Below, piece after piece: positions 54,738-63,754 of a stretch of 64,000 bases of DNA. Below the pieces are notes generated by a model. It was not told the origin of the DNA. It saw only the letters and a program-made list of their open reading frames with translations, and made no database searches. The stretch is taken from positions 992,001 to 1,056,000 of the forward strand of contig NZ_CP081964.1 in assembly GCF_019844075.1 (NCBI RefSeq), written 5' to 3'. Each line of letters opens with the position of its first letter. Within the stretch, counting starts at the first letter, position 1. This DNA comes from Curtobacterium sp. TC1. Lineage in GTDB: Bacteria; Actinomycetota; Actinomycetes; Actinomycetales; Microbacteriaceae. A program made the position numbers and the translations under genes.

Positions 54738-54862
54738 GCGCTGCGACGGAGCCGTAACGGCGCGGAAACGTGCCGGGCCCGAGCCGGAAACAGCGCACCG
54801 TTAGCTTTCGGATCACTGAGTACCCGCTCAGCACCCGACCTCCTCCCGAAGGACCTGCACCC

Positions 54863-55690
54863 ATGCAGCACCGCCTCCGGCTGCGCCCCCGCGCGACGAT
54901 CGTGTCCTCGACACTCGTCGCCGCCGGGGCGATCGGCCTCGCCGCCCTGACCGCCGCACCGGCACAGGCAGCACCGACCGCGACGACCGCGACCATCGAC
55001 GCCCCCACCACTGCGACCGTCGGCACCGCGTTCGACGTCGACCTGACGATCCCGGCGACGACCGACGTCTACGCGTACGAGATCACGCTCGACGCCGACG
55101 CGGACTCCGTGGCGTACGTCGACGACAGCGTCACCGGTCCCGACGGCGGGTTCGACAGCGTCGAGCAGGACGGCGACACCCTGACGGTCGTGCACACCCG
55201 CCTCGGGACCTCCCCGGCGCTCAGCGGCGACCTCGCTGCCTCGATCGGCCTGACGCCGACCGCGCCGGGCAGCGTCGACCTGGCGGTCACGAGCATCACG
55301 CTCGTCGGCTCCGACGGCACCTCGACGACCCTGACCGACCCGGCGAGCACCTCGATCTCGATCGCTGCAGCGGCGACGGCCACGCCGACGCCCACCCCGA
55401 CGGCCACGCCCACCCCGGGCGCCACCGCCACGGCCGACCCGGGCACCGGCGCGGGCGACCCCGACCCGACGGCCACGGCCGGCCCGAGCGACCCCTCCGA
55501 CCCGACCAACGGCGCCACCGCCGTGGCCGCAGCGGGTGGCGACCGTCCGACCGGCGGCGAACTCGCCTGGACCGGCGCCGACGTCGCCCCGTGGATCGCC
55601 GCATCGCTGGCCCTCCTCGCCGCCGGCGGAACCCTGATCACCATGCGTGCGCGCCGCGCCCGCCGCGAGCGCACCGGAGCAGCCGAATGA
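54863..55690 (+). CDS. Wall-anchored cohesin-like protein (LAWTG sorting signal)
   Basis: 275 residues. A signal peptide (1-36) is followed by a cohesin-like beta-sandwich (about 40-168), with the pattern VGTAFDVDLTI, VYAYEITLDAD, a hydrophobic TLTVVHTRLG and a closing SVDLAVTSITLVGSDG. A Thr/Pro/Ala linker (170-230) leads to LAWTG (234-238), a membrane helix and a RARRARRER tail. LAxTG is the class E sortase signal of actinobacteria. The next gene, overlapping by 4 nt, has a dockerin, the known binding partner of cohesins. GAAGGA lies about 10 nt upstream of ATG 54863. Confidence 0.75.
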   Translation: MQHRLRLRPRATIVSSTLVAAGAIGLAALTAAPAQAAPTATTATIDAPTTATVGTAFDVDLTIPATTDVYAYEITLDADADSVAYVDDSVTGPDGGFDSVEQDGDTLTVVHTRLGTSPALSGDLAASIGLTPTAPGSVDLAVTSITLVGSDGTSTTLTDPASTSISIAAAATATPTPTPTATPTPGATATADPGTGAGDPDPTATAGPSDPSDPTNGATAVAAAGGDRPTGGELAWTGADVAPWIAASLALLAAGGTLITMRARRARRERTGAAE

Positions 55691-57573
55691 CCGCCAAGAA
55701 GCCGGCCACAAGCAAGCAGGTCGCGGCAACGCCCACGACCAGCCGGAAGCGCACCGCCGTCGCGGGCGCCTCGCTCATCGCCCTCGTCGGCACCGTCCTC
55801 GCCGCGACCCCGGCGATCACGGCAGCAGCGGCTCCGGCGGCCGTGGACGCCAGCCCCGCCGCGATGCTCGCGCCGTACTACACGGACCTCGACCTGACCG
55901 GCGACGACCAGGTCACGAAGTCCGACCTCGCGGTGCTCACCGACCACCTGGGCACGACGAGCGCCAGTGACGACTGGGCGACGGTCAGCGCCGCGGACAC
56001 CGACGCCGACGGCACGATCACCGTCGCGGACCTCGCGGCGCTGTCCCAGCGGATGATCTACGACGACGGCCCGTTCACGCTCGTCGAGGCGTCCACCATC
56101 GACATGCAGGCCGCCATGAACGCCGGGGTCACCACCTCGGTCGCCATCACGCAGGACTACCTCGACCGCATCGCCGCGTACGACCGCACCAAGGTCGACA
56201 CCGCGTCGACCGGTCGCGCGCTCAACTCGATCGTCACGACGAACGCCGAGGCCCTCGCCGCGGCGAAGACGGCGGACGCCGAGCGGGCCGAGCACGGCAT
56301 GACGAGCATGCTGCTCGGCGTGCCGATCGCCGTGAAGGACAACTACGACACCAAGGACATGCCGACCACGGGCGGCTGCGGCTGCTGGGACGACAACCAG
56401 ACCGACACCGACGCCACGATGGTCGCCGGCCTGCGCGGTGCCGGTGCGGTGATCCTCGCCAAGGCCAGCCTCGACGAGTTCGCCTACGGCTTCGTCTCGG
56501 AGTTCTCGTCGAACCAGCCCGCCGGTTCGTCGTTGCTGGTCGCCAGCCCGTACAACACGGCGCAGACCGCCGGCGGCTCCAGCGGCGGTACCGGTGCGGC
56601 GATCGCGGCGAACCTGGCCGGCATCGGGTTCGGCACCGACACCGGTGGCTCGATCCGCATCCCGTCCACCTACAACCAGCTCGTCGGTATCCGTCCGACG
56701 GTCGGCCTGGCCAGCCGCGACGGCATCATCCCGCTCGCGCTGACGCAGGACACCGGTGGGCCCATCGCCCGGTCGGTGACCGACGCGGCCGTCGCGCTCG
56801 ACGCCGTCACCGGTGTGGACGCGGCCGACCCCGTCACGAGCGCGCAGTCCGGCAAGGTGCCCACCTCGTACACGTCGTCGCTCGACGCCGACTCGCTCGA
56901 GGGTGCCCGCATCGGCTACGTCACGAGCATGGTCGGCACGAACGCCACGACCAAGCGGCTGTTCGACGCGTCCGTCGCGAAGCTCGAGGCCGCCGGCGCG
57001 ACCGTCGTCCCGATCACCGCGACGACCGCGTTCAACCGGGTCCTGTCCGAGGGCAGCGGCAGCACGAACGAGTTCAAGCACGACCTGGACGAGTACGTCG
57101 CGAAGCACCTCGACCCCGACGTGACCGCCCGGTCGCTGCAGGGCATCCTGGCCTCGGGCGAGTACGTGCCGAGCCGCAAGTCGACCTACGAGTCCCGCGA
57201 CCTGATCACCGACGCGCAGTACCAGGCGTGGGCCGGGCCGACGGGTTCGCACACGACGCAGCTCGCCACCGGCAAGCAGCTCGTCACGCAGATGCTCGAC
57301 GACCAGGACCTCGACTCGCTCATCTACCCGTCGGGTACGCCGTACGGCACGCAGTCGACGAACATGCGTCTGAGCCCGAACACGGGCATGCCGGCGATCA
57401 CCGTCCCGATGGGGCAGGCGACGGCGGCCGACGGCACGATCACCGGCGCCGGCGTGAACCTCGAGTTCCTCGGCCGCTCGTTCGACGAGAGCACGTTGAT
57501 CGGCCTCGGCTACGCCTTCGAGCAGGAGACGAAGGCGCGCACCACGCCCGCGCTGTACCCGGCGCTCGGCTGA
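55687..57573 (+). CDS. Secreted dockerin-amidase fusion protein
   Basis: 628 residues. A signal segment (about 22-50) is followed by a type I dockerin-like pair of calcium loops: D69-x-T71-x-D73...D80 and D104-T-D-A-D-G-T-I-x3-D115. Residues 130-625 form an amidase-signature hydrolase with Lys217 in GVPIAVKDNY, the Ser pair in GGSSGG (about 298) and Ser322 in DTGGSIRIP, a complete Ser-cisSer-Lys triad. ATG overlaps the cohesin-like stop (ATGA). The pairing predicts that the enzyme is held on the cell wall by cohesin-dockerin binding. The amide substrate is unknown. Confidence 0.85.
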   Translation: MTAKKPATSKQVAATPTTSRKRTAVAGASLIALVGTVLAATPAITAAAAPAAVDASPAAMLAPYYTDLDLTGDDQVTKSDLAVLTDHLGTTSASDDWATVSAADTDADGTITVADLAALSQRMIYDDGPFTLVEASTIDMQAAMNAGVTTSVAITQDYLDRIAAYDRTKVDTASTGRALNSIVTTNAEALAAAKTADAERAEHGMTSMLLGVPIAVKDNYDTKDMPTTGGCGCWDDNQTDTDATMVAGLRGAGAVILAKASLDEFAYGFVSEFSSNQPAGSSLLVASPYNTAQTAGGSSGGTGAAIAANLAGIGFGTDTGGSIRIPSTYNQLVGIRPTVGLASRDGIIPLALTQDTGGPIARSVTDAAVALDAVTGVDAADPVTSAQSGKVPTSYTSSLDADSLEGARIGYVTSMVGTNATTKRLFDASVAKLEAAGATVVPITATTAFNRVLSEGSGSTNEFKHDLDEYVAKHLDPDVTARSLQGILASGEYVPSRKSTYESRDLITDAQYQAWAGPTGSHTTQLATGKQLVTQMLDDQDLDSLIYPSGTPYGTQSTNMRLSPNTGMPAITVPMGQATAADGTITGAGVNLEFLGRSFDESTLIGLGYAFEQETKARTTPALYPALG

Positions 57574-63464: not shown

Positions 63465-63500
63465 CGGCGCGGACAACTGAACACACCGGCCGTTCATCCG

Positions 63501-63754
63501 TCGCGGGAGACGCCGTGCAGTGCCCACGGGTACCTCGTGCCCACGGGCACATCGTGCCCTCGGGCGCACGCACGGCACCGAAGGAGCAATCCCCCCGTCA
63601 ATCTCTCAGGTCCCACACCGCAGCGGACAGGCCACTCTGAAAAGCAGACGCTCAGTCGTCTCGCCCACGGTGAAAGCCGCCGGACCTCACGGGCCGCGGT
63701 GAAACTCTCAGGCCCATGACAGAGGGGGAGTTCCACCCGGCGATCGTCGCCGGG
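63501..63754 (+). ncRNA. Tandem glycine riboswitch upstream of gcvT
   Basis: Two aptamers can be seen. Aptamer 1 has GCGGGAGA (63503-63510), GCACCGAAGGAGCAA (about 63575-63589), CTCTCAGG (63603-63610) and GGACAG (63625-63630). Aptamer 2 has CTCTCAGG (63705-63712) and TGACAGAGGGGG (63717-63728). A CCCGGCGA/TCGCCGGG hairpin (63736-63743 with 63747-63754) may be the expression switch. The glycine riboswitch class commonly controls glycine cleavage genes, as here. Confidence 0.9.
63519..63569 (+). repeat. Three 17-nt self-complementary tandem units inside aptamer 1
   Basis: Units at 63519-63535, 63536-63552 and 63553-63569 each read GTGCCC-N2-GGG with a complementary end. They extend the variable stem of the first aptamer. 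Confidence 0.7.

Follow-up and report, generated by a model that had tools for sequence, protein, structure and literature searches.

A predicted cohesin and dockerin-amidase gene pair that may form a one-enzyme surface display device in Curtobacterium and related actinobacteria

Cohesin and dockerin domains are best known from cellulosomes and, to our knowledge, the roles of the scattered copies found outside cellulosomes are mostly open. The window analysed here, a stretch of 64,000 nucleotides of Curtobacterium sp. TC1 (G000 contig 3, 992001-1056000, within a genome of 4.16 Mb), carries on its forward strand two adjacent genes, the first encoding a protein with a single cohesin domain and a wall-sorting signal (gene 1) and the second a secreted amidase with an N-terminal dockerin (gene 2). 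We consider it probable, at roughly 0.8, that this gene pair is a two-protein surface display device in which a single amidase is held by a one-to-one cohesin-dockerin socket. After its export the cohesin protein would be attached to the wall through its LAWTG motif by a class E sortase, leaving one cohesin on a flexible stalk; the amidase, exported from the same translationally coupled operon, would bind calcium with its N-terminal dockerin and plug into that cohesin, and this dedicated one-to-one socket would keep one enzyme at the cell surface. For the pair in the window we infer both the cohesin-dockerin binding and the attachment to the wall from sequence.

Gene 1 (54863..55690, 275 amino acids) starts at an in-frame ATG at 54863 that lies inside a longer open reading frame (54770-55690), and gene 2 (55687..57573) encodes 628 amino acids from an ATG at 55687, its frame as listed running from a GTG at 55591 to give 660. 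The two genes share four bases, ATGA, in which stop and start codon overlap, and this junction recurs, always out of frame, in all 22 loci of the genus. Of the 28 cohesin loci of the family, 23 have an ATGA or GTGA overlap at the junction, and in two others the overlap is TGATG. The arrangement recurs across genera and is therefore no product of chance. Read-through of the gene 1 stop codon into gene 2 had been considered as a docking construct and was dropped because of the out-of-frame junction in the genus loci.

The first gene opens with a putative signal peptide (54863..54970, residues 1-36), recognised by inspection from a basic n-region, a hydrophobic core and a cleavage-like site, AQA-AP, and the cohesin domain follows at 54977..55372 (residues 39-170). 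The predicted structure of this domain is the cohesin beta-sandwich fold, with integrin domains, pilins and adhesins standing lower than cohesins in the same lists of the fold comparison. The cohesin profile PF00963 gives the protein 18.7 bits, under the curated cut-off of 24.1; at E <= 1 it matches 15 of the 22 genus orthologues (best 1.5e-7), and of six related cohesin-type proteins four pass (29.7 to 44.8 bits), one reaches 18.5 bits and one has no match at 0.01. A phmmer search with gene 1 against the PDB returned no match at E <= 1, although profiles do match, and the same search with one cohesin protein of a second family, described below, placed antibody chains on top at E 0.01. The segments most conserved across genera, G-G-F and R-L-G-T-S-P with G-D after it, map to strands 96-103 and 106-113 of the model or right next to them, and to the following loop, on the face that we take to be the dockerin site in solved complexes.

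Downstream of the cohesin lies a linker rich in Thr, Pro and Gly (55373..55561), evident in the sequence and matched in the model by a predicted local distance difference test score (pLDDT) below 50 over residues 185-239. It leads into LAWTG (55562..55576, residues 234-238), conserved as LA[W/F]TG in all 22 genus orthologues, and then into a hydrophobic stretch and Arg-rich tail (55577..55687) for which the model has a helix at 242-274 with low confidence. A C-terminal LAXTG, a hydrophobic helix and a basic tail make up the pattern of a class E sortase substrate. Two NCBIfam sorting-signal models match the protein at 28.1 and 25.4 bits, under their respective cut-offs of 65 and 27, and the window's genome has two sortase matches, one of class E (NF033747, 223.6 bits, cut-off 160) and one of class F (171.8 bits, cut-off 166). 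The display of LAXTG proteins by class E sortases is described in a portion of PMC5148588. Within the 28 cohesin loci of the family, 22 end in L-A-x-T-G or L-S-G-T-G by a script pattern, and inspection adds three that end in LPGTG or LPSTG; of the rest, L094 runs into the end of its contig, L112 is a fusion with an internal LSATG segment, and L115 has no clear sorting signal.

Gene 2 likewise begins with a putative signal peptide (55687..55833, about residues 1-49), with a basic n-region, hydrophobic core and AxA-like site seen by inspection, and continues with a type I dockerin (55867..56061, residues 61-125). The dockerin profile PF00404 matches residues 69-122 with 25.6 bits (cut-off 22.9) and scores 31.1 bits on the domain alone, where EF-hand models reach 13 to 17 bits, and Dockerin_1 is the only calcium-binding family that the whole protein matches at E <= 1. 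Calcium loop 1 (55891..55926, residues 69-80, DLTGDDQVTKSD) keeps D69, D73 and D80 invariant in the 22 orthologues and has Thr, not Asp or Asn, at its third position; in calcium loop 2 (55996..56031, residues 104-115, DTDADGTITVAD) D104, D106 and D115 are invariant and D108 is nearly so. At E <= 1 the profile matches every one of the 22 orthologous domains (best 2.3e-8), and its matches in the 22 genus genomes are all over the cut-off. The two calcium loops stand in F-hand (loop-helix) repeats, which is what marks a type I dockerin. A dockerin runs loop-helix, helix, loop-helix, and the same pattern is found in the dockerin model of a relative of the window's protein, G437, with helices at 278-285, 297-303 and 313-321 and only a three-residue turn at 262-264 before loop 1.

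The first-pass annotation of this DNA had described two overlapping genes, a cohesin fold in the first protein, an LAWTG wall-sorting signal and two dockerin-type calcium loops in the second protein, and all of these hold at the positions given above. It had also proposed a check with the two Pfam profiles, the outcome of which is divided: PF00404 supports the dockerin over its cut-off, and PF00963 stays under its own in the window's protein. Of the two outcomes that it had named as refuting, a missing cohesin fold is contradicted by the predicted structure, and a missing interaction is addressed by the single-chain prediction for a natural fusion that is given below.

The remainder of gene 2 is an amidase-signature catalytic domain (56068..57570, residues 128-628; PF01425 253.1 bits at 177-478, cut-off 27). 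Its best solved relative is the peptide amidase 5ac3, with an E-value of 1.1e-71 over residues 128-621, and a further peptide amidase, 1m21, aligns to residues 129-621 at 6.7e-71. Lys217, Ser298/299 and Ser322 are invariant in the 22 orthologues, and the catalytic triad is presumably among these residues. A Ser-cis-Ser-Lys triad is named for the amidase signature family in an excerpt of PMC11708778. Of the 29 NCBIfam matches compared for the substrate of the amidase, the best 25 all stay under the cut-offs of their models, and no anchor of its own was seen in the enzyme by inspection; it probably acts outside the cell, taking ammonia off the amides of small peptides or amino acids. A separate feature of this domain is a CGCW segment (residues 231-234, window 56377-56388), in which C231 and C233 are invariant in the 22 orthologues and which is missing in two second-family genomes, G639 and G552.

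Across the genus the parts occur together. PF00404 (E <= 0.001) is found in 22 of 66 genomes, once in each and always in the N-terminal part of a gene 2-type amidase, the same 22 hold the amidase itself (E <= 1e-60), and a gene 1 orthologue lies at the same place in every one of them. The search with gene 1 covered 60 of the 66 genomes, the remaining three of the 22 being read directly; it gave near full-length matches in 19, all among the 22, and in the 41 others none or weak matches (best 6.1e-8), mostly to linker and tail. The hallmarks of a cellulosome, a multi-cohesin scaffoldin and many dockerin enzymes, are absent from the window's genome, where at E <= 1 PF00963 has the one match in gene 1 and PF00404 the one match in gene 2. 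These counts support the first-pass annotation in its suggestion of a one-enzyme device with no cellulosome around it, and the survey of Microbacteriaceae that it called for has found the gene pair conserved across genera, with a cohesin by profile in 28 of the 30 dockerin-amidase genomes.

Scanning named genome contigs yielded 23 loci, in Curtobacterium, Leifsonia, Herbiconiux, Subtercola and unclassified Microbacteriaceae; the dockerin-amidase follows the cohesin gene in 21 of these, and L070 and L075 break off inside that gene or shortly behind it. Searches of 398 genomes of the family found the cohesin profile (E <= 1e-10) in 28, spread over 16 of 85 genera, the amidase (E <= 1e-100) in 30, which include all of those 28, and PF00404 (E <= 0.001) in 26; absences here are not exhaustive because a limited number of candidates was scored in each genome (10 for the cohesin, 3 for the amidase). 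As to the two amidase genomes that the cohesin profile does not match, in G159 the contig starts 363 bases before the amidase alignment, and in G286 the upstream gene holds a divergent cohesin-like segment with TRLGTS that is matched by tblastn and not by Pfam. In G257 the cohesin gene and the amidase gene are on two different contigs, each at an end. A PF00404 match stands at the start of the amidase in 25 of the 30 genomes, and in the other five (G125, G159, G286, G425 and G437) tblastn finds the dockerin at 46 to 61% identity; a further 26 genomes have a best amidase match of 1e-60 to 1e-100, and none of these matches PF00404. The 26th PF00404 genome, G363, was set aside, its match being to an 86 amino acid frame that neighbours an Asp-rich repeat protein at the end of what is likely a stray contig, with neither partner in the genome.

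A second PF00404 match was observed in each of two of the 398 family genomes, G419 and G456. Both fall in the middle of large secreted-looking proteins, one of 1251 amino acids in G419 (L181 3357-7112, forward strand; 19.2 bits, cut-off 22.9) that has an LAATG-like tail and one of 1239 amino acids in G456 (L182 1466-5185, reverse strand; 26.0 bits, same cut-off), and neither protein has any other Pfam match at 0.01.

The order of the two genes is not fixed. A class-wide draw of 394 genomes gave ten that match the cohesin profile at E <= 1e-6, six of them in a second family, and seven loci were read. G795, of the host family, has the usual order, and in five second-family genomes (G704, G824, G750, G639 and G552, loci L195 to L199) the dockerin-amidase comes before the cohesin; in G251, too, the amidase gene precedes the cohesin gene. 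The five second-family cohesin proteins extend beyond the cohesin domain, and an Ig-like model, Big_3_5, matches the two that were scanned, under its cut-off. In G437 the two genes form one open frame of 874 codons (L172 2276-4900, on a 2.7 Mb contig), in the order cohesin, sorting-signal-like region, signal-peptide-like region, dockerin and amidase, of which Pfam matched the cohesin and the amidase. Such a single-frame fusion argues that the cohesin and dockerin-amidase parts work together, docking not being shown thereby. It seems fairly likely that we are dealing with a dedicated one-to-one socket outside any cellulosome that forms a two-gene unit in one actinobacterial family, there in at least 16 genera, and in a second family, in both gene orders and with one fusion.

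Several results weigh against a socket of this kind. EF-hand models also match all 22 orthologous dockerin domains (best 4.5e-7, as against 2.3e-8 for Dockerin_1), and a profile of these 22 domains (A2) compared with the PDB puts calmodulins on top, with no dockerin in the best 60 of 202 matched chains. A mirror-tree comparison of distances (66 loci, 63 with all three parts and 57 after removal of duplicates, with the first 120 amidase residues used) gave a partial correlation between cohesin and dockerin, given the amidase, of 0.18 over the 57 loci (permutation 0.0005), of 0.28 in the 22 loci L033-L054 and of 0.26 in the remaining 35; for the latter the cohesin-amidase correlation given the dockerin is 0.51, and there is therefore no dockerin-specific signal of co-evolution. 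None of the five second-family cohesin proteins beside an amidase has an LAXTG signal, so wall anchoring is not universal, and in G779, which has a cohesin match of 60.4 bits, the 6.5 kb read contain no match to the amidase. Furthermore the G437 fusion keeps its dockerin and thus leaves any redundancy of that domain undemonstrated. The last such point is that no control stands beside the predicted template modelling score (pTM) of 0.54, obtained in a single-chain prediction for the 330 residues of G437 that run from the cohesin to the dockerin.

That score can be read against a rough, uncontrolled yardstick scaled from the gene 1 model, which puts pTM at about 0.45 where the placement of the two domains is not fixed and at about 0.61 where it is firmly fixed; lying between these estimates, 0.54 suggests partial confidence in a defined placement of cohesin and dockerin. 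The pLDDT was about 92 in residues 1-130 and 78 to 85 in 271-320, with 54 and 63 at the ends of the dockerin and mostly less than 50 in the linker. The alignment used (A7) holds the target with 40 whole or end-trimmed copies of it that keep the register, together with 31 of 55 cohesin and 29 of 53 dockerin fragments, the window's cohesin being in and its dockerin out; fragments of the genus loci L034-L054, of L139, L178 and L179, and of L112, which is the target, are left out. In a local alignment test the linker tails of cohesin rows still fell on some dockerin columns. Another alignment, A6, was dropped because in it the C-terminal halves of the cohesins were set against the dockerin. Taken as it stands the prediction lends a possible cohesin-dockerin interaction support of a moderate and uncontrolled kind.

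The calmodulins and EF-hand models in these lists, and distance correlations with no signal specific to the dockerin, would suit two proteins that share a pathway and do not dock, the dockerin-like part being a calcium-stabilised domain of the amidase and the cohesin fold a binder of sugar or another surface ligand, as the likeness of the beta-sandwich to integrin domains, pilins and adhesins would also allow. We nevertheless regard this as unlikely, given that nearly every dockerin-amidase genome has a cohesin by profile, the two others being divergent (G286) or cut by the contig start (G159), that the pair is kept in both gene orders and once in a single frame, and that Dockerin_1 is both the best match of the window's domain and the sole calcium-binding family on its whole protein.

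It would seem very unlikely that the cohesin is a general socket, a small scaffold that also holds other secreted proteins. The large proteins of G419 and G456 with their second dockerin matches speak for such a role, and the LAATG-like tail of the former counts in its favour too; however, the 22 genus genomes have a single PF00404 match each and the window's genome has one even at E <= 1. Of lower probability still is a cohesin that serves as a wall-bound partner for storing, folding or inhibiting the amidase, with catalytic display secondary. Translational coupling with the cohesin first in most loci suits the co-expression of such a partner, as does an amidase with no other visible anchor, but the amidase retains invariant active-site residues, and on the N-terminal side of its catalytic domain the dockerin forms a stretch of its own.

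Elsewhere in the window a tandem pair of glycine riboswitch aptamers lies at 63494-63732 on the forward strand (42.0 and 36.9 bits, both above the gathering score of 32).

If real, the display device would represent cohesin-dockerin display in a minimal natural form, placed on an amidase instead of a glycosidase, and one would ask for what reason an amidase is kept on the wall. Because one cohesin and one dockerin stand adjacent here, with a recognisable anchor and enzyme, and recur in a third of the genus genomes (22/66), two proteins suffice for testing what a non-cellulosomal pair does. The sequences suggest that in some soil and plant bacteria a single enzyme is held on the surface by a simple device of two parts, and the pair may offer a new coupling pair for surface display. 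Non-cellulosomal cohesins and dockerins are reportedly the subject of a review by Peer et al. from 2009. A description of a cohesin and dockerin-amidase pair was not found in the open-licence literature at the level of titles, the starts of abstracts and parts of PMC3544764 and PMC12915301, the first of which states, in the part concerned, that Cellulomonas genomes have no cohesins or dockerins.

Sortase-anchored single cohesins and solved non-cellulosomal cohesins are both already known. ScaE of Ruminococcus flavefaciens has, like gene 1, a single cohesin and a C-terminal sorting motif, and passages of PMC2930009 and PMC4081043 describe it as bound to peptidoglycan by sortase. The alignments to the peptide amidases 5ac3 and 1m21 start after the dockerin, so that an N-terminal dockerin is an addition of the window's enzyme. 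In Clostridium perfringens, going by the titles of the entries, the non-cellulosomal cohesin is a module of the glycosidase itself, as in NagJ/GH84C (2jh2, 2o4e, 2ozn and 2w1n) and GH33 (2vo8), whereas the window's cohesin stands alone on a sorting signal and has an amidase as its partner.
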